Assembly (NCBI GenBank): GCA_947259495.1
Contig: CAMYLV010000013.1
Span: 1-64,000, forward strand
DNA length: 64,000 nt
Origin: an uncultured Desulfobacterales bacterium
GTDB lineage: Bacteria > Desulfobacterota > Desulfobacteria > Desulfobacterales > JAHEIW01
Reading direction: 5' to 3'
The notes beneath the pieces are model-generated. The model saw nothing but the letters and a program-made list of their open reading frames with translations. It was not told the DNA's origin and did not search any database. The translations under genes and the position numbers were made by a program. Positions 23,596 to 37,923 of this stretch are shown piece by piece (within the stretch, counting starts at the first letter, position 1; each line of letters begins with the position of its first letter).

Positions 23596-24537
23596 TTAAG
23601 CTCTAAAATGCTGTTTAGAAAAAGCGATTCGGTCTTCGATATTGGATAATTCTTGCTTATGCTGTTCAACGAATTGCAAACGCGGCAACAAGCCGGCTCG
23701 ATTGGCAATCTGGATATTGAGGCCCGGACGAGCGTTGATTTCCAGAAGTAAAGGCCCCTTGTCCTTATCCAAAACCAGATCAACGCCAACATACCCCAGT
23801 CCGGTAAGTTCATTACACTGCGCAGCAATCTTTAACAAGGTATTCCAGCTCGGAATTTTGACACCGGCGACCGGATTGCCGTTATCCGGATGCTCGTTGA
23901 CTATGGTATTGCGCCACACCGCCGAAAGGGTGGTACCGGTAGCCATATCGATTCCCGCGCCAAGGGCCCCCTGATGCAGGTTAGCTTTGCCGCCGGACAT
24001 CCGCGTGGGCAATCGGACCATGGACATAACCGGCACGCCGAGAAATACGATGACCCGAATATCGGGCACCCCCTGGTGGCTGATGGTCTCAAAAACCGGG
24101 TCAAATTGCACCCGATATTCAATCAGGGCCTTATCCGGCTGCCCTCCCAGACTGTATATGCCGCTGATAATATTAGACACATAATAACCGATTTCTTCCC
24201 GGGTCAACAGTACGCCATCAACTTTGCGATACATGTCCCTAGAGCGCCCGGCAATAACCAGAATGCCGTTTCCGCCCGAGCCTCTGGACGGCTTGATGGC
24301 GAAATCCGTATGTGATTGAATAACGGCATCCAACTGACGAACCTGATATTCGGTCTCGATAACGCCGTAAAGCTTCGGTACAGCGATCCCGGCTTTTTGT
24401 GCAAGTTTTTTGGTGAGCAGTTTATCATCCACCAGCGGATAGCGATTGCGCGAATTGTATTTGAGGGTAAATTCGGCGTTTCTCCGGTTGATCCCCAGCA
24501 CACCGATCTTATTAAGTTGTCTTTTAACGCTAAACAT
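23596..24537 (-). CDS. ATP-grasp alpha-L-glutamate ligase-related protein (RimK/TIGR02291 type)
   Basis: 313 residues. N-terminal region (VLGINRRNAEFTLKYNSRN, then DDKLLTKKLAQKAGI) and the ATP-grasp core: IKPSRGSGGNGILVI with the nucleotide-binding Gly loop, and the Mg2+/phosphate residues in YVGVDLVLDKDKGPLLLEIN followed by ARPGLNIQ. This matches the RimK-related ligases that always travel with an inactive transglutaminase-7TM protein and a retropepsin-like protease, as here. It likely forms amide bonds between an amino acid (glutamate suggested by the family name) and an unknown acceptor. It overlaps the 7TM gene by 8 nt. Confidence 0.88.
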   Translation of the reverse strand: MFSVKRQLNKIGVLGINRRNAEFTLKYNSRNRYPLVDDKLLTKKLAQKAGIAVPKLYGVIETEYQVRQLDAVIQSHTDFAIKPSRGSGGNGILVIAGRSRDMYRKVDGVLLTREEIGYYVSNIISGIYSLGGQPDKALIEYRVQFDPVFETISHQGVPDIRVIVFLGVPVMSMVRLPTRMSGGKANLHQGALGAGIDMATGTTLSAVWRNTIVNEHPDNGNPVAGVKIPSWNTLLKIAAQCNELTGLGYVGVDLVLDKDKGPLLLEINARPGLNIQIANRAGLLPRLQFVEQHKQELSNIEDRIAFSKQHFRA

Positions 24538-26065
24538 CGGATTTTATCTCTGTCATCGATTTAAAGCGCGGCAACTCCAGTAATCTTAACCCGGTATAGC
24601 GACCCAGCCACAGGGTCGCAGCCAGCAGGAGAAGCAGCAGCTCCGGAAAAACAGACACTAAATGTTCCAGGTAGCCAATTGTCATCACCACATAAGCCAG
24701 CATTGCTGCAGCAAGCGACCAGGCACCCTGCTTCAAGGTTTCCAATGCCCCCAGTTCCTCCCAGACAACGGACATTCGTTCAATGGTCATGGTTAAAATC
24801 ACCATTGGGAAAAGTGCCACTGAAAGCCCCCGTTCCAGACCGAGTTTGTGGGTCAAAATGCTGAACAGGGCCATCAGGCCAATGACGACGATTAAAACGG
24901 CAGCCAGACGGGGTACAACCAGCAACTTCAGGTGGGCCAGATATAAGCGTATGACAAGTCCTATCGCAATCAAAGCCGTAAAGAAAATGACCCCCCATAA
25001 AAGATGGGTTTCGCGAAACGCCAGGGCAATTAACACCGGCATAAATGTGCCGAAGGTCCGGATACCGATGACATTGCGCAGGATAACCAGTAGAAAGACA
25101 CCGACCGGTACCAGTAAAATCACGTGATAGACCGCCTGGGTCTCAACTGGCAGGCTGAGCAGCGAAAAGTTTAGCAAAAATGGCTTCTTAAGCTCACCGG
25201 TTTCTAAGGCCGCCTGTACGGCCGGCATCTCACTGCGGGCTATCGAAAGATTGACGAGAGGGCTTTTGACCCCTTGAGAGAGCACCAGCGGTTCCATACC
25301 CCGCCACCAGGCCAAATAATCCTCAGAAATACCCGGTTTGGCCGTCAAGGGGTCATAGGATAGCCATTGTTTTTGATCATACACTTCCAGCCAGTGGAAC
25401 ATAGGGGCATTGCGTTTTTGGTCTTCCAGCCGGATACCGTGCACACTGCGCGCATGGATGCCGGCAAGCGCCAGCAGCTGGACGGTTAAATCGACTTTTT
25501 TCTGAACCGAAGCTTTTTTCCCGAGCAGCAGCGTGACATTATCATCGGGTTGCGGAGCGTTAAAATGGCGCAAGAGTTCCAGGACGATACCTTCGACATC
25601 GGCGGATTTTGCGCGCGCCTCTGAGACAAGTGTTTCGGAGGCTTCACGATAGGCGCCATTAAACTCGGGCTCTTTGAGACCGGATTTTTCCGGCCGTTGA
25701 ATGAGCACATCTCTATTCATTCGTCGCACCGAAGCCCGGTAGTATAGGTTTTGTGCGCCTTTTACGCTGCGAATGGACCAATGCACCCTCCTTTTACCAT
25801 CTTCGGTGGCGACATTGACACCGTATCCCCTGGAGATAAAATTTTCATTGACAAGGGCAAACTGACGAGAATTACGCGGAATGTGCATCGAGACCTTTAT
25901 GGGGTCTTTTCCGGACACAAAGCTCAGGTGCGCTTCGATATGCCAGATGTCGGATCGCGCTCTGGAAACCAGCGGAAAATCCAATACAACCGCTTTGTAT
26001 AAAAACACAGCCAGACCGATAAAAACCAGGACCAATGTCAGATAGGTGAGGTGCCTTTTCGTCAT
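24530..26065 (-). CDS. Inactive transglutaminase fused to 7 transmembrane helices
   Basis: 511 residues. One N-terminal membrane anchor (about 8-28), a periplasmic transglutaminase-like domain (about 35-260; HARSVHGIRLEDQKRNAPMF then HWLEVYDQKQWLSYDPLTAK) in which the catalytic cysteine of the papain-like fold is not apparent, then seven membrane helices (about 300-495). This is the Pfam pair Transglut_i_TM / 7TM_transglut. The family is always found with the ATP-grasp ligase and the retropepsin-like protease, and here overlaps both neighbours (ATGA upstream, 8 nt downstream). Role: probably a membrane sensor or scaffold for the ligated product; not experimentally clear to me. Confidence 0.87.
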   Translation of the reverse strand: MTKRHLTYLTLVLVFIGLAVFLYKAVVLDFPLVSRARSDIWHIEAHLSFVSGKDPIKVSMHIPRNSRQFALVNENFISRGYGVNVATEDGKRRVHWSIRSVKGAQNLYYRASVRRMNRDVLIQRPEKSGLKEPEFNGAYREASETLVSEARAKSADVEGIVLELLRHFNAPQPDDNVTLLLGKKASVQKKVDLTVQLLALAGIHARSVHGIRLEDQKRNAPMFHWLEVYDQKQWLSYDPLTAKPGISEDYLAWWRGMEPLVLSQGVKSPLVNLSIARSEMPAVQAALETGELKKPFLLNFSLLSLPVETQAVYHVILLVPVGVFLLVILRNVIGIRTFGTFMPVLIALAFRETHLLWGVIFFTALIAIGLVIRLYLAHLKLLVVPRLAAVLIVVIGLMALFSILTHKLGLERGLSVALFPMVILTMTIERMSVVWEELGALETLKQGAWSLAAAMLAYVVMTIGYLEHLVSVFPELLLLLLAATLWLGRYTGLRLLELPRFKSMTEIKSDV

Positions 26066-26592
26066 TGATCAATAGACCTCTGACAGTGGGGCTCAACCGT
26101 GAAAGTAGCTGAGGCATCCACCAGAAATGAACCTTTGAGGAAGCTGCGCCCGAGGAGCATCTGATAGTTAAATTTGCTGCGATCCTCCAGATTAACCTCA
26201 ACTTCTTTGAAAACGTTGCCCAGGCATATGCCCAGTCGGATGACGGGGCGCTCCAGAGATTCCGTGCCATGCTGTTTGATTTTGGCCATCCGCGTAACTC
26301 TGGCTTCAAAGCTCTCCTGACGACCCCGCCAGTTGGTCAGATCGAATCGAACCCAATTCGTTCCGTCACGCTCAAATGTCTCCAGGCGAGTCGCATTTAA
26401 AGATGAATGTTTGGCACCGGTGTCCAGCTTGGTCTTGATTTTCAGGTTGCCGGGAAAAATGGCGGCATATTCGATCCAACCGGCAATCTGCTTTTCCCCG
26501 GACACGGCATCGGGGATAACCATCCACAAGACGGCAAAGACAAAAATAAGGCCACAAAGTCGTTTGCTGTAATTATAAAATTTTTTCATCAT
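26062..26592 (-). CDS. Retropepsin-like aspartic protease of the RimK-associated family (annotated ATP-dependent zinc protease)
   Basis: 176 residues with a signal peptide or anchor (RLCGLIFVFAVLWMVIPDAV) and one retropepsin-like domain. The motif KTKLDTGAKHSSLNAT holds the D-T-G active-site triad; WVRFDLTNW and NYQMLLGRSFLKG are conserved family blocks. These proteins (Zn_protease/DUF785) are still often called zinc proteases, but the DTG motif argues for an aspartic mechanism. It starts the three-gene operon with the transglutaminase-7TM and ATP-grasp genes, and probably cleaves the product of the ligase in the periplasm. Confidence 0.85.
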   Translation of the reverse strand: MMKKFYNYSKRLCGLIFVFAVLWMVIPDAVSGEKQIAGWIEYAAIFPGNLKIKTKLDTGAKHSSLNATRLETFERDGTNWVRFDLTNWRGRQESFEARVTRMAKIKQHGTESLERPVIRLGICLGNVFKEVEVNLEDRSKFNYQMLLGRSFLKGSFLVDASATFTVEPHCQRSIDQ

Positions 26593-26656
26593 AAATTTCA
26601 GGAATCGGTGTATTGAGGATATATTTATTTTAAAATTTTGCGGTACATTAATCTTT

Positions 26657-27595
26657 TTACCAGTGCGGCTGATTGCCGATTCGTTTGCCCATCACCTCAA
26701 GGGTTTCGGTTACGACCACAAACGCATTCGGATCGATTTTGCGAATCAATTCCTTGAAGCGGGACAATTCTGTAAGAGTGATGACCGAATACAGAATGTG
26801 CAGCTGCTGCTTGCTGTATCCTCCCTCGCCTTGCACGATGGTCACCCCTCGCTGAAGTTTATCGATTATTTCTTGGGATATCTCTTCCCATTGAGGGGAA
26901 ATGACCATCACCGCCTTGCGCTGGTTGAGTCCGATGATGACCAGGTTAACAAAGTAGGAATTGATAAAAAGATAAATCAATGTATACAGAACAATTTCCA
27001 CGGGCAGGCGAAATAATGCCACCAGCAGCAAGATGGCATGAAAAAGCATGACTGTGGTTCCCGGTCGTATTGAAAAGCGCTTGAATAAAATAACTGAGAG
27101 GACGTCCAGGCCACCGGCAGAACCCAAAGACCTCAAAATAATGCCCGAACCGATTCCAGAAATGATTCCGGCTGCCAGGGCACTGAGCATCATATCCGCG
27201 ATCGGTAAAGCCGGGAAAGGATAAAACATAACAACCGAAAATATAACCATCCCCGCCAGGCTGTACCAAAAAAAGCGTTGTCCGACGAACATCCAGCCGA
27301 TCACGAACAACGGTATGTTGAGTAAAAAATATAGTATGCCAATCGGGATAAATCGGAATACATAATGCAGGAGAATAGCCAGACCGGTTACACCGCCGGC
27401 CAGAAATTGTTTGGGGACTAAAATGCCTTTAATTGCCAGCGCACAGATCACAGTGCCGGCAAATAAAAGCGTTAAATTCCAGCCAATCGTTTTGGAGTGA
27501 TGCAGGATCTCTTTGGATCGGGTAGACAGCTGTGATATTGTTTTGCGCTGATGGGGTATCCGATCTGCAATTTCCACCGATTGAGAACGTTTCAT
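26657..27595 (-). CDS. YitT family membrane protein (DUF161 + DUF2179)
   Basis: 312 residues. Five to six membrane helices (about 38-215) with GTVICALAIKGILVPKQFLA and GSAGGLDVLSVIL, both conserved in YitT, and a cytosolic C-terminal DUF2179 domain (about 235-305; RGVTIVQGEGGYSKQQLHIL). Function is not established in the family; a transport or second-messenger-sensing role is proposed elsewhere. The N-terminal ~30 residues are hydrophilic and unusual. It lies 64 bp upstream of the protease operon on the same strand. Confidence 0.85.
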   Translation of the reverse strand: MKRSQSVEIADRIPHQRKTISQLSTRSKEILHHSKTIGWNLTLLFAGTVICALAIKGILVPKQFLAGGVTGLAILLHYVFRFIPIGILYFLLNIPLFVIGWMFVGQRFFWYSLAGMVIFSVVMFYPFPALPIADMMLSALAAGIISGIGSGIILRSLGSAGGLDVLSVILFKRFSIRPGTTVMLFHAILLLVALFRLPVEIVLYTLIYLFINSYFVNLVIIGLNQRKAVMVISPQWEEISQEIIDKLQRGVTIVQGEGGYSKQQLHILYSVITLTELSRFKELIRKIDPNAFVVVTETLEVMGKRIGNQPHW

Positions 27596-27647
27596 TATGG
27601 AACCCGTTTACGATTTTTGAAATATGTTTTTATTAAGCTCAAAGCGC

Positions 27648-29780
27648 CTATTTTATTTTTACGACAACCAGGGTCACATCATCTTTGAATTTCTTGCCTT
27701 TGGTAAATCGATACAGCGAATCAATAAATATGTTCAAGATGCCCTTGGCACTCAACCGCGCATGGGCGCGAATAAGATCATATATTCTGTCTTTTCCAAA
27801 CATTTCGCCATTGACATTTACGGACTCCCAGAGCCCATCGGTTGCCAGAACAATGATCTGCCCTGCTGATAAACCGGCTTTTTGATTTTCCTCGTAAGCC
27901 CAGGATTCTTCAACCCCCAGGGCGATGCCCTGGCCGCCAAGCGTTGCAAACTCTCGCGTTCCGGGATCGTAGAAAATGGCAGGATCCTGGCCCGCACGCA
28001 CCCATTCCAGTGTTTTCTGTTTGGCATCGATGCGCAGGTAAAATAAGGTCATAAAATTGTTGTATTCGGCGACATCTTTGACCAGTTGGCGGTTGACATC
28101 TGAAATTATCTGACCGAGGGTTCCGGGCAACGAGACCCGCTGGCGCAAAAATGCCCGGGCGGTGGCCATCAGCAAAGCCGAAGAAATGCCATGCCCGGAT
28201 ACATCTCCCACAACGACGCACACTGTGCTGTCATTCTTCGCGTCAAATTCTAAAAAATCATAGTAGTCACCCCCGGTTTCATCGCAGTAAATGCTCTTGC
28301 CGGCAATATCCAGTCCCGGGATTTCGGGATTTCGGGCGGGCAGGAGCTTTTGCTGAACTTTCATGGCCAGATTCATGGACTGATTCAGGCGCAGATGATC
28401 CGCCAGTTTCGGTCCCATCTCATTGAAGGCCTGAATGACAAGATCGCGCTCATCACCGGTGCGCAAACCCAGTTTCACCGAAAAATCACCGCCGGACAGC
28501 TTTTTAGCAGCAGTGGCAATTCGCAGCAATGAACGTGTAATCATATAAGAGCCGATCAATGCAGACGCCGCCAGAAACAAAATGGTTAAGAGGGTGGCAG
28601 CACCGGCAAACAGGATTTGATCTTTCAAGTAGGCAAAAAAGGTATTCCGGGTTTCGTCCGGTAGCGCCATGATAACCGCTTTGGGTACAATCACCACGAA
28701 ATGGGTAAGCTCATCGATACCGGCATAGGCCCAGATGGAGTCATCATTTTTAAACGGCAAAGACGTGTATCCCGACTGCCCCAGCCCGAGCCGTTTTCCG
28801 ACGATGTCACTTCCGGCGTTCTCTGAAGCAGATAACCATTTTCCGCCCACCACCGGCACCCAGGAGCCGGAAGCGTCTTGATAGTTTTTTTGCGCTAGTA
28901 TCTGAAGGCCTGGCTGCCGGGTGGCCGGATTGGCGCTGAGGGTGACGATGAAAGAATGCGCATCGGCGGCCCAAAGCGGAGAAAGCGCACTTTTTTTCAA
29001 GGCCTCGATAAAAAGAATATCGATGGCCGCAACCCCTATAAAGCTTCCATCCGGAAGATACAGGCGCTTTGATACCGTGTAGGTCAGAAAGCCGGTGGCG
29101 GTATTGATCGCCGGCAGGGTCCAGGTCGGTAAATCTTTAGCGTCTTTGAACCAGGGCTGCCACCGTGGCTCAAAACCATCCCGATAGCCACCGTGACCGG
29201 GGTAGGACAGATAGACACCATTTTGCAAACAGATGTGGGCCCAGTGCAGGGAACCGCCAAATTGAGTTCTTAATTTCCTAAAAGTCGGCGTCAGCTGGTT
29301 CAAAAGCGCAAGCTCCCGAACAACGGTTTCTTTCTCAACGCCCGGCGCCAGCAAAAAAACAGGATGATTGAAACTGACCGGATTGTCCAGAAACCGGCCG
29401 TCATGGGTTTTTACCCGGTATTTTTGGGAAGGCAAAAAATCTTTGGGTGCTGTGCGGGGGTCTTCAAAATCACTGGCAACATAAATTGGCGTGAGTTCCG
29501 CGGGCACTTTCGAAAAGGCCAGCTCTGCTTCAGCGGCCAAAACTTCCAGATAAAACGCCATGGCCTCTTTGGTTCGTTGGATCACCTTAGCCGAATTTTC
29601 AGCAGTTTGCTGCAACTCCATTCCGACGATTTGGGTGAGCCGTTGCCGCGCCTCATCTGAAATTGTTTTGCTCAGGAGCAAGGTGCCTCGCTGGCTGACG
29701 ACGGTAACCACAATCAGCGGCGTCAAGCTGAATACGAGCAAAATAATGAAAAATTTCCAGCGGAGTTTTATTTTAAACAT
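27648..29780 (-). CDS. Cache-HAMP sensor with PP2C (SpoIIE/RsbU) phosphatase output
   Basis: 710 residues. First helix about 10-30, large periplasmic dCache-like sensor (about 35-385) with PWFKDAKDLPTWTLP and FIGVAAIDILF blocks, second helix about 390-415, HAMP (about 415-468) and a C-terminal PP2C-type serine phosphatase (about 480-710). Metal-binding motifs are visible: GDVSGHGISSALLM and the ATDGLWES segment. Such proteins dephosphorylate anti-anti-sigma or related STAS proteins in a partner-switching pathway; no STAS or RsbW gene is in the window, so its target lies elsewhere. It follows the epimerase gene by 18 bp and may be co-transcribed with it. Confidence 0.9.
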   Translation of the reverse strand: MFKIKLRWKFFIILLVFSLTPLIVVTVVSQRGTLLLSKTISDEARQRLTQIVGMELQQTAENSAKVIQRTKEAMAFYLEVLAAEAELAFSKVPAELTPIYVASDFEDPRTAPKDFLPSQKYRVKTHDGRFLDNPVSFNHPVFLLAPGVEKETVVRELALLNQLTPTFRKLRTQFGGSLHWAHICLQNGVYLSYPGHGGYRDGFEPRWQPWFKDAKDLPTWTLPAINTATGFLTYTVSKRLYLPDGSFIGVAAIDILFIEALKKSALSPLWAADAHSFIVTLSANPATRQPGLQILAQKNYQDASGSWVPVVGGKWLSASENAGSDIVGKRLGLGQSGYTSLPFKNDDSIWAYAGIDELTHFVVIVPKAVIMALPDETRNTFFAYLKDQILFAGAATLLTILFLAASALIGSYMITRSLLRIATAAKKLSGGDFSVKLGLRTGDERDLVIQAFNEMGPKLADHLRLNQSMNLAMKVQQKLLPARNPEIPGLDIAGKSIYCDETGGDYYDFLEFDAKNDSTVCVVVGDVSGHGISSALLMATARAFLRQRVSLPGTLGQIISDVNRQLVKDVAEYNNFMTLFYLRIDAKQKTLEWVRAGQDPAIFYDPGTREFATLGGQGIALGVEESWAYEENQKAGLSAGQIIVLATDGLWESVNVNGEMFGKDRIYDLIRAHARLSAKGILNIFIDSLYRFTKGKKFKDDVTLVVVKIK

Positions 29781-29798
29781 AGCTATACTATATGGTGA

Positions 29799-30869
29799 TT
29801 ATAGCGATTCCAGATCAACTCCCAGGCCCGGCTTGCCGGCCGGGTAGAGCATCCCGTTTTTGAGCCTCACGGCCCCGGCCGACGGATCATTGATTAAACC
29901 CAGATGGCCGTCCAAATCAGCGTATATCACATTGGGTCGTGCCAGCGCAAAGTGCAAACCGGCTGCAATACCCAGGGCGGCTTCATCCATGCACCCCACC
30001 ATGACTTCAAAATTGGCGGCCCGTGCCACAAAATTTATTTTAAGGGCCTCCGATATCCCGCCCACTTTCATCAATTTGACGTTGATCATATCAACCAAAT
30101 CCCTTTTCGCCAATCGAAATGCATCCCGCAGGTTCATCAGACTCTCATCGGCCATTACCGGGATCGACACTTTAGCCGTAAGTCTACCCAGCGCGTCAAG
30201 GTCTTTTCTGGATGTGGGTTGTTCGATCAATTCGAGTTTGGACGGTCGCGTTTTTTCGACCAGGCGTAGGGCATCTTTTTCCGAGTATCCCTGATTGGCG
30301 TCAAAGCGCAGTTCCACTCTGGGCCCAACAGCCTCTCTGACTTTTAGCAAGCGTTCAATATCGGTTTCGAGCTCAATGCCGCCTTTGATTTTTAATGATT
30401 TAAACCCTTGGCCGACATATTCCTTTGCCCGGGAGACCGTATCGGCGACCGGCATAATACCGATGGTGATGCTGGTCTTGATTCGGGTTCGAAACCCGCC
30501 GAGCAGTGTATAGACCGACAGCCCGCAAACTTTACCGAGAATATCATGCAGCGCCATATCAACCATGGCCACAGCCGAGGGATTGTCCCTTAAAACGGGC
30601 CTCAATCTTTCCAGCAAAAATGCGATTCTCAAAGGATCGTTTTTTATTAACCGCGGCTGTATCTCGTCGCGAAAAATTCGCAGAACACTTTCCGGGGTTT
30701 CACCCGTGACATATGCATCCGGGGCCGCACAGCCGTATCCGATAACGCCCTTTTCGGTTTCGATGCGCAAAAATACATTCGTACAGGCGCTGACTGTTTC
30801 ATAGGCAACCGTATAGGGTTCGGCCAGGCGCATCTCAACCGGCCAGGTTTCCAGCTGGACAATTTTCAT
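29799..30869 (-). CDS. Enolase-superfamily dipeptide epimerase / DgcA-like dehydratase
   Basis: 356 residues. Muconate-lactonising-enzyme-type barrel with the expected catalytic residues: KIKGG (Lys pair), [10 protein letters not shown] (Asp), ELIEQP (Glu), MADESLMN (Asp) and the opposite lysine in [10 protein letters not shown]. It is annotated generically as L-Ala-D/L-Glu epimerase. In marine Proteobacteria the homologue DgcA works with a DUF1611 N-acetyltransferase (DgcN) on N-acetyl-D-glutamate; a DUF1611 gene lies two genes upstream here, so a dehydratase or epimerase acting on a glutamate derivative is a reasonable inference. It starts 2 nt after the PP-loop/creatininase gene stop. Confidence 0.85.
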
Positions 30870-30871
30870 GT

Positions 30872-33271
30872 TTAGTAATTTCGATGGTGGATTTCTTCAA
30901 GGGTCAAATGCTTGATATCCTCTATCAGAGAGACCAGGTGAGCAATCATGATTCCCCATATCTTTTCCCCTTTGGCAGCACTGGCTTTGGTCGGGTCACC
31001 CATCACCCCGCTGCGTGAAATCTTGCGGGTGTAGGCATACCACAAAACGCCGCGCTTGGAGGTAAAGTCTAAATAGCGACTGGAAAACCTGGGAACACTT
31101 CTTTTGGCCTGATCCATTTTTACCAGTCGAGGACGTACAGCCAGCCCCGCGCTGGTTTCAATTTCACCGGCATGCACATCGTTGGGCGTCGAAACGATTT
31201 TTTCTATGTCCACATCACTGGTCTCCCCGCTGTCGACACAGACAAAGATATGGGCATCTCGGTTGATCATCTGGGCGGCATAATTCAGTGCCGGGCTGTT
31301 ACCGCCGTGACCGTTGATTATCATCAGTTTTCGGATGCCGTTGCGGGCAACACTCATCCCGATTTCATAAATCATTTGGGCAAGCGTATCATTGGATATG
31401 CCCACGGTTCCAACGAAATCGGCGTGGTGATAAGACACGCCGTAAGCGATCGCCGGAAGCACCAACGGCTTGGGATCGCTGCAGGCTTCCGCCACTCTGC
31501 GCGCCAGATAATCGGCGTCAAAGGCATCGGTATCCAGCGGCAGATGAGGTCCGTGTTGTTCGACCGCACCCACCGGCAACAAAGCGACGTCCATTTTTTT
31601 GATTCGCATCCTGGCCTCGCGCCAGGTGAACTCACCCCAGAGGTAACCGGCGGCGCCCGATGTTTTCAGGGTGTGGTTGGCTTTGTTTACCGACTTGATA
31701 GGATCGAATTCAAAAGGAAAGTTTGCATCAACAGCCGGATCCTTGAGCACGTCCACTTTTTCCCAGGTACGTCCGCTGCGCGACACGGCTCCGCCGGCAT
31801 GTTTGAGAAAAATTCGAAAAAGTGGTTTACGAAGATCGGTGGGCATCGAATTGATGGGAGAGGACTTCGAGTCGATTCGCAATTTTAGGATTTCCGGTTG
31901 CGCATTAACAGCCTTTGGGGGTAGTGCTTTTGCATCGATTAAACCCTTTTGCGCCAATAGGAAAAACAAATGCCGCGTGCCGGCTTCCTCCTGTGAAACA
32001 CCTTTGCGGGGCAATTTTTTAAGGCCATCCTGAATCTGAGAAGGGGAATAACCGCATTGAACCGGATCGGCACCGATGGCTTTTAACATGGCGACAATGC
32101 GCCGGCACTTTTCACAACGCCCGCAGGGATAAACCCGCTCGCCCTCCTTATGGGTTGCGTGACAGGAGGTCTGCTGACGCTGAAGATCCGGGTAGCGCTC
32201 GACCAGTATCTTTTCGATGAGAAGCTCTGATAATGATCTCAAGATGGAAAACTGACTGATGTTCCAACCCTTGCGCATAAAATACCGCGAAAGCGCACGA
32301 TCGAAATAGATGCTTTGATCATAGAGCCCGTCATAATGAGATATGCCATGGGACGTTCGGCGCACCGATGTGTCATACTCGTCTCCGATGAGCAACCGAC
32401 CAATACTGCGTTTGCGTAAAAGCGGTAAAACGCCGAATAGAAAAACCGCCACGGTCCACAGTCGAATCGGATACTCATCGGAACGGATATTGGCAAAATC
32501 CTTGCGGATGAACGGCATGCGCTGCAACATCCAGGAAAACAGCCGATCGGAGTTGACCCACACCCTGGCCGTGTTAGGCATGTTATCTTTAAAGTACCGG
32601 TACGCGTTCAGGGCTGTAAACCAGTGCCGCCCCGACTCGTTTACAAAAATCGGATGGGCCTCGCGACCGATTTCATTGATCAGCCCGTAGCTTAAGAGGC
32701 TGTCTTTGCCGCCGCTGGACAGGATGCAATGCCGATGCCTGTCAGTAGACCACAGCTGCCACTTTGATTTGGATTTAAGCGCGGGGGTTTCGGGAAACTT
32801 CAACGCCGCCCGTAAATACTTTTGCTTTTTTACAGCGGGCAAGTTGGCGTAGTGATCGATCAAAAACGGATTGGGCTCCATAAATTTCTTGACATAAATT
32901 TCCCGGGCGGTGTTTTCGGCCATATCCCGGATGAAGCGGCGGTCGAGCTCGTCGAAGGTCCCGTGAAAAACAATGGTTCCACAAAACAACCCGTAATTGA
33001 GGGCCACCTGGGCGGCAATCATATCCGCTAAATTCCGTGATTCCGGCTCCAGCGGATCAAATACCGTCTCTTCATAGCTGTAAATCAGCTCGGTTCGATC
33101 TTCGCGTCCGTTCCAAAAAAGACGATAAGGCGCCATCAGCCTTTTGGGTTCAATTTTAACCGGACCAATCTCCAGTCGGTCAAAGACCTGCAAGGCTGAA
33201 AACGGGTCATGCAAGGGTTTTCCGGAAGCAGATTTCCGGCTGGGTTTCGGAGGTGTTTTTTTTGAAGGCAT
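30872..33271 (-). CDS. Fusion of an ATP pyrophosphatase-like (PP-loop) domain and a creatininase-family domain
   Basis: 799 residues in one uninterrupted frame. Residues ~1-430 hold a PP-loop nucleotide-binding domain with [19 protein letters not shown] (SGGKDS is the P-loop of adenylating enzymes such as QueC) and a cysteine cluster [20 protein letters not shown] resembling the zinc site of QueC-like enzymes. Residues ~545-795 are a creatininase-family metal-dependent amidase: [17 protein letters not shown] (metal ligands E, H, D), [15 protein letters not shown] and a downstream H-A-G-E-x-E motif (VHAGEIETS). The fusion would couple ATP-driven activation to amide formation or cleavage, on an unknown substrate. 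Tightly packed between the epimerase and DUF1611 genes. Confidence 0.83.
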
Positions 33272-33282
33272 GGCTCTTCTTT

Positions 33283-34356
33283 CTATCTAAGATAGGACTT
33301 TAAAACTTTCACAATAGCACCGGCCCCATCCTTGAGTACATCAAAAGCCGGCAGACCGACCTCTTTTTCGATTGCATCGCAAACCGGCGCAATTTGATCA
33401 GCAGACAGGCCCTCGTGGTTGACGGTAACCGCCACAACCGGTTTGGCGGACAGAAGTTCGATCGCCTGAATTTGCTGTGCCAGGGGCTGTAGCGGGTATC
33501 CCGGGAACCCGTCATATTCAAGCCGTGCAGGCGCGTGCTGAAGAACAATGATGTCGGGCCGACCCGCAGCCAGGATTTCGAAGCCGCCCGGATAAGCCGG
33601 GTTCATCAAGCTGCCCTGCCCCTCAATCACAATAACATCCGGTTTTTCTTGATTCCAGGCAGTCCATACCGCATGCTCTATTTCACCGGCAACAAAATCG
33701 TTCACCAACGAGTCCATAATGATCCCGTATTTGAAGCCCTGCATCCAGGCGGTCTGGCCGGTGCCGATCATCTCTGCTGAAACGCCCTGTTCCCGGAGGC
33801 CCTTGACAATCAGCCAGGCCGTCGTGCGTTTACCGATCGCCGAATCGGTTCCCAGTACAGCGATTTTCAGGGCCTGGACCGCTTCTATTTTACCGCTGAA
33901 AAAATGTAGTTTTTGAATCCGCGGCGGCTTGCGAATATCTCGGATTTTAACACCATACTGAGCGGCAAGCTCCATCATTTCCGGGTCTTCCGCAAGGTAA
34001 TCATGCAGGCCACAATCCACGTTCAAACCATATGAAATGGCATTTTTGATATTTTGCCGCGCTGTTGGAGGCAGGCGGCCGCCATCCGGCGCCAGTCCGA
34101 CAACAAAGTGTGTGGCCGGACGGGTATGACTGTCGGCCTCCGTAAAAGCCTGTTTCAGTGAACCAAAAACCGGAATGCCGTTACCTTTACCGTCCAATAT
34201 GTCTCCGGCATCCCGGCCAGCATAACGTGAATCGACAACCGAAAGTACACGATAGCGGTTTGTGAACCTGATCAAGCCATGTGCCGTTTTGCCGTTGGGC
34301 GTGTTAAAGGCCCCCTCACAATATACGATGGCATTTCCCTCAGGCAATGCGTTCAT
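33283..34356 (-). CDS. DUF1611 protein, DgcN-like (D-glutamate N-acetyltransferase family)
   Basis: 357 residues, full-length DUF1611. N-terminal Rossmann-like region (YCEGAFNTPNGKTAHGLIRF, RYAGRDAGDILDG) and C-terminal P-loop-like domain with AVLGTDSAIGKRTTAWLIV and VIEGQGSLMNPAYPGG. DgcN was shown in marine Proteobacteria to N-acetylate D-glutamate, paired with DgcA; whether this protein has that activity is inferred from family and neighbourhood. Its ATG overlaps the end of the PLP-enzyme gene by 4 nt, and the ribosome site GGGAGGAG lies inside that gene. Confidence 0.83.
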   Translation of the reverse strand: MNALPEGNAIVYCEGAFNTPNGKTAHGLIRFTNRYRVLSVVDSRYAGRDAGDILDGKGNGIPVFGSLKQAFTEADSHTRPATHFVVGLAPDGGRLPPTARQNIKNAISYGLNVDCGLHDYLAEDPEMMELAAQYGVKIRDIRKPPRIQKLHFFSGKIEAVQALKIAVLGTDSAIGKRTTAWLIVKGLREQGVSAEMIGTGQTAWMQGFKYGIIMDSLVNDFVAGEIEHAVWTAWNQEKPDVIVIEGQGSLMNPAYPGGFEILAAGRPDIIVLQHAPARLEYDGFPGYPLQPLAQQIQAIELLSAKPVVAVTVNHEGLSADQIAPVCDAIEKEVGLPAFDVLKDGAGAIVKVLKSYLR

Positions 34357-35483
34357 GATCTCCTCCCGGTTAAGACGACAACATAGCGATCTCCCGGTAG
34401 GGAATCCCGCCGGTGCCGATCCATCAGCGCGATAAGGCCCGCCGTCGAGGCCGGCAACACCTGCAGGCCTTCCTTTTCGCGAATCAAGCGCGCATATGCG
34501 CGCATAAGTTTATCCGAAGCATCAGTCGCCCATCCGTTGGTTACGCGAATTCCTTCCAGGGTGTGATCCCCATCAATAGCGTGCCAGTTGATCAACGGCT
34601 CATTGACGCTGGTTTCTTTGATTTTTTGCGGGCTGAGGTCTTCGCAGGTCGGGGTGTTCTTCAAATAGGCCTGCACAATCGGATTTTTGCGAAACGAAGA
34701 GCCGGCCACGATTCGGGGCATCCGGGAAGTTTTGCCGCGTCGGTAGAGGCTCAAAAAACCCTTATAGATGCCCGCCAGCGTTGTTCCGTTTGAAACCGGA
34801 GCCGCGAGCGCCAGCGGTGCGTCCCGCAGTTCATCATATATTTCATAGGCGATTTGCCCGTATGCGCGGAATTGAGTAAGGGTATTATCACCGCCAGGAT
34901 TGGCATCGTAATACTCGTGTTTCTGAGCCTGCTCCTGGGAAACCGTCACCGCCTTTTCATAATCGCCGGCAACCCGGACAATGTCTGCGCCGAGCTCGGT
35001 CATCTCTTGTACCCGGTTGGTGCGATAGTTCTCCGGAATGCAAATCCGGCATCGCAGCCCGGCAAATGATGCTGCCAAAGCCATGGCCGCACCGTAGTTG
35101 CCACAGGTCGCCACCGTGATGGTATCATAGCCGCGCCGCAGGGCGTCCATGGCCTGCGCAAATGCGATCCGGTCCTTTTGCGTGCCGGTCGGGTTGCCGC
35201 CTTCGAATTTAAGAAAAATTTGGCGCAGGCCGACTTCGCGTTCAATGTTTCGCGCTCTGACCAGAGACGTATCCCCTACCTCCGAATCGAAAATATCTTC
35301 ATAAACTTCCAGGCGCTCATCCAGGGGCAGTGTTGAATTGGCTGAAATTTTACGCTGCTCGTCAAGTTCCCTGATCACCTGCAAGCCTTCGCCGGTGGCC
35401 CCATCCATCAGACTGTATGGCCTATTGTAAGGTTTAGCTTCTGCTATTCGCCCGTTGCTGTTACTTTGATTCGAATTATTCAT
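34353..35483 (-). CDS. Fold-type II PLP enzyme, threonine synthase-like
   Basis: 376 residues. The PLP lysine is in GGNPTGTQKDRIAFAQ, and AACGNYG-like VATCGNYGAAMALAA plus LALAAPVSNGTTLAG are the phosphate- and ring-binding blocks of threonine synthase/threonine dehydratase relatives. The N-terminus lacks the long extension of classical threonine synthase. Substrate is unknown; O-phosphohomoserine or a related phospho- or acetyl-amino acid is possible. First gene of a four-gene operon, so its product may feed the DUF1611, PP-loop/creatininase and epimerase enzymes. Confidence 0.83.
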   Translation of the reverse strand: MNNSNQSNSNGRIAEAKPYNRPYSLMDGATGEGLQVIRELDEQRKISANSTLPLDERLEVYEDIFDSEVGDTSLVRARNIEREVGLRQIFLKFEGGNPTGTQKDRIAFAQAMDALRRGYDTITVATCGNYGAAMALAASFAGLRCRICIPENYRTNRVQEMTELGADIVRVAGDYEKAVTVSQEQAQKHEYYDANPGGDNTLTQFRAYGQIAYEIYDELRDAPLALAAPVSNGTTLAGIYKGFLSLYRRGKTSRMPRIVAGSSFRKNPIVQAYLKNTPTCEDLSPQKIKETSVNEPLINWHAIDGDHTLEGIRVTNGWATDASDKLMRAYARLIREKEGLQVLPASTAGLIALMDRHRRDSLPGDRYVVVLTGRRS

Positions 35484-36519: not shown

Positions 36520-37923
36520 ATGAAATCTATTCTGGTTGCCACCTCCGATCAAAAATTGTTGCCTACCATACGTTCCTGTTTCCCATCGAGTTATCGGGTG
36601 GATCGCGCATCTACGAAATACCAGGCAATAGAATTAGTGCTTAAAAGACGCTACGACCTTATATTCATTGAGCTGGACATCCTTTTTGAAAATGTTCCTG
36701 ATGAAGATTACAATGAGGCCATGCAGCCTTTCTGGCAAATATACTCCACAATTGAAATCATCATTATGGCCCCTACTAATCAGATCCGCAAAGCCATAAA
36801 AGCAGTGAAAGCCGGTGCGAGCGACTATCTTCCCTTGCCAGCAGATCCAGAGGAAGTAAAGTATGTCGCTGATAGCATTGCCGAGTCCATAATGATACAA
36901 TCGGAGCTGGATTATCTACGGGATCAATTCTGGGACCTTGATTCGCTTGAGCTTGTGCAGACAAAAAGTCCTGCAATGAAAAAAACATTCGACAAAATGC
37001 GTTCCGTTGCCCCAACTAAAAGCACCGTATTACTCATAGGGGATACGGGAACCGGTAAAAGTGTTCTGGCAAAGCTCATTCATCAGCACAGCAACCGTCG
37101 GGATGCTCAGTTCATCAGTGTTCATTGCGGTGCAATCCCGGATACACTGATTGAAAGTGAAATGTTCGGCCATGAAAAGGGCGCTTTTACCGGAGCCATA
37201 AAAAGAAAATTAGGAAAGTTTGAAATCGCCCACGGCGGCACTATTTTTCTGGATGAGATCGGTACGATTACACCATCGACCCAGATCAAATTATTACAGG
37301 TTTTACAGGATGGGACCTATCAACGCGTGGGCGGTGAAGAAATCCTTAAAACAGATGTCCGCGTGATTGCCGCCACCAATGCCGATCTGAAAAAAATGTG
37401 CGACCAGGGACAGTTTAGAAAAGATCTTTATTACCGGCTAAACGTATTTCCCATCGAAATACCGGCGTTAAGCGAACGCATTCAAGACATCCCATCGTTC
37501 ATCGAGACCTTTTTAAGGAGCCTGAATAGTTTTTCTTTAAAAAATATACGTTCAACGCATCCCCAGGTGCTGGACGCCTTCAGCAGGTATTCCTGGCCGG
37601 GCAATATCCGGGAATTAGAAAATTTGATCGAACGGGCTTATATACTGGAAACTTCAGACAAGCTAACACCGGAAAGTTTTCCCAATGAGCTCTTTGATTC
37701 CGACTCCAATCCCGTGTTTATCCCATCAAGTGAGACCCTGACGTTGACTCGGGCCCGGCAGCGCGGTGTTGAAGAAGTTGAACGAAATTATTTGAAAGAT
37801 GTTTTGGCCCGCCACAAAGGAAAGATTGGCGAATCGGCTGCGGCCGCCGGTATCAGCACCCGCCAGCTCAACAAACTGATGAATAAATATGGCATCAGAA
37901 AAGACGAATTTAAGACCCTGTAA
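36520..37923 (+). CDS. Sigma-54-dependent activator with degenerate receiver domain
   Basis: 467 residues, NtrC-type order. Residues 1-125 form a CheY-like fold whose phosphoacceptor position is Glu ([10 protein letters not shown] where the family has D), the N-terminal acidic pair is missing (ILVATSDQK), the conserved Thr/Ser is Ala (IIIMAPTN) and the Lys is replaced (LPLPADPEE). So it is probably not a phosphorylated switch. Residues ~145-385 are the AAA+ core: Walker A GDTGTGKS (about 174), GAFTGA (221-226, the sigma-54 contact), Walker [11 protein letters not shown] (about 240). The C-terminal Fis-type HTH ([20 protein letters not shown]) should bind the palindromes near its neighbours. 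Ribosome site AAGGAAAG. Confidence 0.92.

Follow-up and report, generated by a model that had tools for sequence, protein, structure and literature searches.

In the window, the whole 64,000-nucleotide stretch of DNA from an uncultured Desulfobacterales bacterium, four genes lie on the reverse strand (−) in the order PALP – DUF1611 – fusion – enolase-superfamily enzyme, with gaps of 2-11 bp or a 4-bp overlap between them. The first gene of this operon (34353..35483, −) encodes a PLP-dependent threonine-synthase-like enzyme (PALP; NF004996, 423 bits against a cut-off of 266), and the host genome contains further threonine synthases besides it. It is followed by the gene of a DUF1611 protein related to the D-Glu N-acetyltransferase DgcN (33283..34356, −), by the gene of a 799-residue protein in which a MurL/QatC/QueC-type PP-loop enzyme is fused to a creatininase-family amidohydrolase (30872..33271, −), and by the gene of a dipeptide-epimerase-like member of the enolase superfamily (29799..30869, −).

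When 84,980 species genomes were scanned with an alignment of the N half of the fusion, 129 relatives came to light, from which the best 80 loci were kept. Beyond the four operon genes, recurrent neighbors in these loci are patchy, such as DUF2179/YitT-type membrane proteins or a sigma-54-type regulator, and give no clear functional clue. In the window, the gene of this sigma-54-type response regulator (36520-37923, +) diverges from the operon, near which it is found in 16 of the 80 loci; matches to a sigma-54 promoter for the operon were no better than chance. Downstream (23596-29780, −) lie genes for a SpoIIE phosphatase, a YitT/DUF2179 membrane protein, an RloA-type retropepsin, an RloB-type inactive transglutaminase-7TM protein and a RimK-like ligase, the last four of which also follow the operon epimerase gene in another genome of the order (G125, L049).

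The fusion gene reads from ATG to stop without interruption, in agreement with the original prediction of a single 799-residue frame joining two domains. A search for further fusions found the complete protein in one frame in 63 of the 80 independent loci, spread over many phyla. Both halves are under purifying selection, with dN/dS values against one same-genus relative of ~0.14 (N half) and ~0.06 (C half). Since so many loci share the fusion in one frame and dN/dS is low, the join is no frameshift artefact, and a false join of this kind was discarded as an explanation. The AF2 model of the whole fusion has a pLDDT of 86 and a pTM of 0.79. In Pfam the creatininase domain alone scores above its cut-off, and no Pfam family does so for the N half. 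The gene, as read from its sequence, encodes one real enzyme that combines a putative carboxylate-activating ATPase half with a predicted creatininase-type amide hydrolase.

The N-terminal, predicted ATP-dependent enzyme spans residues 22-520 (31712..33208, −) and comprises an N-terminal alpha/beta domain, a PP-loop core and a C-terminal helical part. AF2 models these ~500 residues with high confidence (pLDDT 92, pTM 0.91), and we therefore regard most of the stretch at 430-545, which the original prediction had taken for a linker, as domain: at a pLDDT of 85-98 it is largely folded and forms part of the N-terminal enzyme. The model thus describes the N half as a complete enzyme and not as a small PP-loop domain plus linker. 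The real flexible linker covers residues 523-540 (31652..31705, −), which are weakly conserved, have a pLDDT below 50 (model residues 502-519) and, against the same-genus relative, a dN far above that of either domain. In the phosphate-binding PP-loop SSGGKDS (residues 185-191; 32699..32719, −), SGGK and the last Ser are invariant among 54 aligned sequences and the Asp is kept in at least 90%. All four Cys of the set C370-x12-C383-GxC386-xxC389 (32105..32164, −) are likewise invariant in the 54 sequences; this set has the same CxxCxxC end as QueC and MurL-type proteins and probably binds zinc. Sequence and model together indicate that the ATP site of the N half is intact.

By sequence, MurL is the sole recurrent NCBIfam match of the N half, present in 53 of the 54 members (best E 5e-9), the other family listed being one chance match. 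The fusion itself scores 22.6 bits with the MurL model NF041275, below the cut-off of 700. Profile comparison relates the N half to MurL-type proteins from the PP-loop to the Cys cluster (E 7e-7) and also to an unnamed family of 450-470 aa (E 7e-8; L052 3801-5219, −; L054 2453-3811, −). The members of this unnamed family carry an SFGKDSL/SYGKDSL PP-loop and a CHxCxxC Cys set, and profile comparison relates them to MurL as well. Weak Pfam matches occur to QueC (PF06508) in 29 of the 54 members (best E 7e-4) and to DUF6395 in 18, and the fusion protein does not reach the PF06508 gathering score. By fold, QatC is the best whole-length match among solved structures (Z 15.1 over 314 residues, N-terminal extension included), with QueC (Z 13-14, 13.8) and Cap9 (Z 13.2) close by and TtuA, LarE and TilS lower at 9-10; a search by sequence found no solved MurL structure.

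With MurL the fusion shares the domain order, a GGKD PP-loop, a (D/N)E motif, an SFLRPLS(D/E)L-type motif and the SC...CxxCxxC Cys set. It differs from MurL in its score far below the family cut-off, in the creatininase joined to it and in its setting: MurL is recognized beside MurD2 in genomes without murI, whereas the fusion has PALP, DUF1611 and epimerase genes as neighbors and a host genome with murI. The reviews consulted restrict MurD2/MurL to Gamma- and Alphaproteobacteria and to rare actinobacteria. We note that a true MurL-like gene lies beside a MurD-type gene in two genomes of the host's order (G093 and G038; L053 978-4277 and L034 483-3174), the first without a murI match and the second with a weak one only. 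With QatC, QueC and Cap9 (PF06508) the fusion has in common the SGGxDS PP-loop core (residues 186-191) and a Cys cluster ending in CxxCxxC (CGxCxxRR in QatC), and with QatC also the fold of the N-terminal extension. Unlike the QueC zinc motif C(x)8CxxCxxC, the four Cys of the fusion are spaced C(x)12CxxCxxC. Furthermore, no deazaguanine or defense genes lie beside the fusion, and metabolic genes stand where qatABCD would have QatA, QatB and QatD.

The C half (residues 545-799; 30872..31639, −) matches PF02633 at residues 547-783 (E 2.5e-70, 237 bits against a gathering score of 31.3) and resembles creatininases in fold (Z 26). A PP-loop of the adenylating type, accompanied by a QueC-like Cys cluster, is indeed joined to a creatininase-family hydrolase, with the motifs intact. 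As in creatininase, MftE, IolN and ArfB, the E/H/D/H/E residues are kept: E571, H573, D582, H655 and E705, beside which H700 was also noted in this domain, are invariant in 67 of 67 sequences and align with E34/H36/D45/H120/E183 of creatininase, which we take to be its metal-binding residues. The metal ligands were predicted to be intact, and this held for these five; the position of creatininase E122 is Gly657 in the fusion and, among the 67 sequences, Gly in 53 and Asp in 14. Because Gly657 replaces E122, creatinine is, on sequence grounds, an unlikely substrate. Unlike the named subfamilies, whose cut-offs it does not reach, the C half scores 108 bits with creatininase proper (TIGR04448, cut-off 235) and 156 bits with its nearest subfamily, MftE (TIGR03964, cut-off 172); no mycofactocin genes are among the identified neighbors of the fusion. 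Sequence and model agree in assigning the C half to the creatininase-type metallo-amidohydrolases, here joined to an ATP-dependent enzyme.

The best solved relatives of the enolase-superfamily enzyme are the dipeptide epimerases 3jva, 1jpm (YkfB) and 3rit. K160, K162, E216, D241, K265 and D318xD320 are invariant in 56 of 56 sequences, so that the catalytic set of dipeptide epimerases (KxK, the D/E/D metal ligands and the opposite-face Lys) is kept together with the DxD motif, which in known dipeptide epimerases holds the amino group of the dipeptide. The specificity loop differs: the operon enzyme has Glu24 (53 of 56) where YkfB has Arg24. It also has an invariant C-x-DE motif, which reads CMDE in 3rit, presumably a cationic-dipeptide enzyme. 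The DUF1611 protein matches PF07755 with E 1e-65, and its solved relatives are 2g0t, 2obn and 7xrj, the last of which we take to be DgcN. The operon shares with the DgcN-DgcA pathway the joint encoding of a DUF1611 protein with an epimerase of the enolase superfamily. Both operon proteins, however, score far under the cut-offs for DgcN and DgcA (the DUF1611 protein matches the DgcN model NF041892 with E 1e-46 and 159 bits against 480), and the operon has the PALP and the PP-loop–creatininase enzyme in addition.

The fusion is no one-off, because it is part of a strongly conserved operon found across many phyla. The 53 aligned fusions are 55-71% identical; the other loci among the 80 are in several cases cut by a contig edge, have the two halves as neighboring or distant genes, or are without the C half. 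Where there is enough flank, PALP is found in 64 of 67 loci, DUF1611 in 60 of 67, the creatininase in cis in 67 of 73, the epimerase in 48 of 57 and all four together in 39 of 50, the PALP and PP-loop genes being the most tightly linked pair. At least 13 phylum labels, which are submitter names, many of them from MAGs, are represented (Thermodesulfobacteriota, Myxococcota, Acidobacteriota, Bacteroidota, Gemmatimonadota, Planctomycetota, Ignavibacteriota, Zixiibacteriota, Latescibacterota, Calditrichota and others), and the named strains include Desulfosarcina alkanivorans, D. widdelii and Flexithrix dorotheae. The labels are patchy and scattered on a poorly resolved tree, with 28 label changes where 12 would be the minimum, which suggests transfer but falls short of proof.

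Within the host's order, the fusion or its pieces occur in 13 of 146 Desulfobacterales genomes (63-84% identical); in a phylum-wide sample, the fusion is present in 5 of 247 genomes, the host's own counted, and a remote relative in one more. Among the 146 genomes an orthologous PALP is found in exactly these 13. Twelve of the 13 also have an orthologous DUF1611 and twelve an orthologous epimerase; outside the 13, the DUF1611 recurs in G043 and the epimerase in G043 and G014. The exception is G054, where the operon versions of both are missing and a more distantly related epimerase-DUF1611 pair, its two genes adjacent, lies ~85 kb away. In G043, which has neither fusion nor PALP, the orthologous epimerase directly follows an apparent GNAT-type acetyltransferase gene (L145 5482-7093), hinting at an N-acyl substrate.

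Loci in which the fusion is split reveal how its halves are grouped. The halves are neighboring genes in L076, L108 and L128. L080 and L125 have, elsewhere in their genomes (in L125 on a short contig), a creatininase of 61-69% identity that adjoins the epimerase gene. In the broken loci (L080/L142), PALP, DUF1611 and the N half stay together, as do creatininase and epimerase; the fusion therefore joins two sub-modules. No close creatininase domain was detected in the draft genomes of L104, L116, L118 and L120, and the epimerase is absent from the locus in L122, L123 and L132. Neither creatininase nor epimerase is strictly required, since four loci do without the one and three without the other. 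In G125, the fusion gene is broken into an N part (residues ~12-229; L048 8325-9437) and a C end (residues 710-799; L049 7729-8154). They are separated by 1.4 Mb of a single contig, and each retains its own side of the operon intact; this may be a true rearrangement or an assembly error.

Our preferred, if tentative, reading is that the fusion is a two-active-site enzyme of a small-molecule pathway, with adenylation of a carboxylate followed by epimerization or amide transfer in the N half and amide hydrolysis in the C half. MurL uses ATP, yields AMP and acts one way, and an acyl-adenylate intermediate has been proposed for it (PMC8788868, PMC5808125); QueC and Cap9 use ATP to activate a carboxylate, to which an amine is then attached, yielding amides. 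Because MurL converts ATP to AMP and QueC and Cap9 activate a carboxylate, we infer by analogy that carboxylate adenylation is the best-supported first step of the N half. The N half would thus turn ATP into AMP and PPi and adenylate a carboxylate; the most likely one, as proposed for MurL, is the alpha-carboxylate that the C-terminal residue carries in a small peptide or an N-acyl amino acid. Adenylation would acidify the alpha-proton and lead to one-way epimerization (our first choice) or to hand-over to an amine. On the same metabolite, the C half may then hydrolyze an amide bond or else a ring that activation has closed, and reversible movement of the same stereocenter would fall to the enolase-superfamily enzyme. 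The original suggestion that the protein activates a carboxylate and transfers it, or processes its own product, is possible in these terms.

The nearest characterized relatives by sequence of the N half, the DUF1611 protein and the epimerase act on the alpha center of amino acids or peptides, on its carboxylate or amine, which is why an amino-acid conversion pathway is proposed, one that would assemble, invert or salvage an amino acid by way of N-acyl or dipeptide intermediates. Three relatives (MurL, DgcN and L-Ala-D/L-Glu epimerase) suggest, by analogy, glutamate as substrate; plain L-Ala-D/L-Glu is disfavored, since the operon epimerase has Glu24 where YkfB has Arg24. We favor epimerization over amide synthesis, not strongly, because the sequence tie of the N half is to MurL. 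Against MurL-like epimerization stands that the similarity to MurL is remote (22 bits) and that family membership does not fix the chemistry, as the amides formed by QueC and Cap9 illustrate. It would also be odd for a MurL-like domain and a dipeptide-epimerase-like enzyme to share one operon if both epimerize the same center.

An amide synthetase is a rival that we take seriously, though we doubt it: the N half would adenylate a carboxylate and join it to ammonia or an amino acid, giving a pseudo-peptide, for example an osmolyte, which the creatininase edits or matures and whose stereochemistry the enolase-superfamily enzyme sets. NAD synthetase, QueC and Cap9 offer models, the latter two forming amides from the activated carboxylate, and the N half is similar in fold to QueC, Cap9 and QatC; PALP enzymes often make unusual amino acids, and the PALP gene is the one most tightly linked to the PP-loop gene. 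Yet the closest relative by sequence is MurL, which is no ligase, and neither a glutaminase or ammonia donor nor a known osmolyte gene stood out among the recurrent neighbors. Recovery of murein-type D-Glu (or D-Asp) peptides, in which DUF1611 protein and epimerase act as DgcN and DgcA, whose route turns D-Glu into L-Glu, and the creatininase supplies the missing deacylase or dipeptidase, is improbable. DgcN-like and epimerase-like genes adjoin in the operon and, as a 40% identical pair, elsewhere in G002, G054 and G141, in some loci near peptide transporters or peptidases, and G054 has this alternative pair instead of the operon's own; such recovery leaves the ATP-consuming MurL-like domain and the PALP unexplained, and both the low scores, far under the cut-offs of DgcN and DgcA, and Glu24 in place of the Glu-binding Arg of YkfB tell against it.

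The remaining two proposals fare worse. A QueC-like system that modifies proteins or nucleobases, comparable to Cap9 in type IV CBASS or to the role proposed for QatC, is very unlikely: QatC is the best fold match over the whole length, but all operon partners are small-molecule metabolic enzymes, and no PADLOC, phage or plasmid match was found for the N half that would indicate a role in defense or mobile elements. That the fusion is a bona fide MurL making D-Glu for peptidoglycan, as the homology of the N half might imply, is scarcely credible. The host genome has murI (223 bits, cut-off 147) and the role is therefore not D-Glu supply for peptidoglycan; true MurL loci have a MurD-type gene, none of which is among the neighboring operon genes analyzed, and 22 bits stand against a 700-bit cut-off. 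Host murI and this far too low family score rule out MurL function proper.

The two-active-site enzyme that we prefer appears to be new in its combination of parts. As had been expected, no characterized enzyme that pairs a PP-loop with a creatininase domain was found in the literature searched, and the open-access full-text literature yielded no account of either fusion or operon, an absence that is no proof; neither MurL nor creatininase comes up in a survey of the QueC family from 2026. As far as found, the operon is undescribed, and it probably marks an undescribed pathway for peptide-like or D-amino-acid metabolites. The broader proposition, which we would place only just short of an even chance, is that PALP, DUF1611, MurL-like/creatininase and epimerase-like proteins form a widespread, unrecognized pathway through which a new peptide-like or D-amino-acid metabolite is made or remodeled; in it, one polypeptide would spend ATP on activating and inverting (or coupling) a substrate and, in its second active site, hydrolyze an amide of the same metabolite.

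In sum, the N half represents a separate, well-conserved branch of the MurL/QatC/QueC-type PP-loop enzymes with a high-confidence model, and the family offers new material for how a PP-loop enzyme may epimerize or couple a carboxylate. That at least 13 phyla have kept the four genes together, at ~55-80% identity, points to a metabolic pathway that is, as far as found, undescribed.
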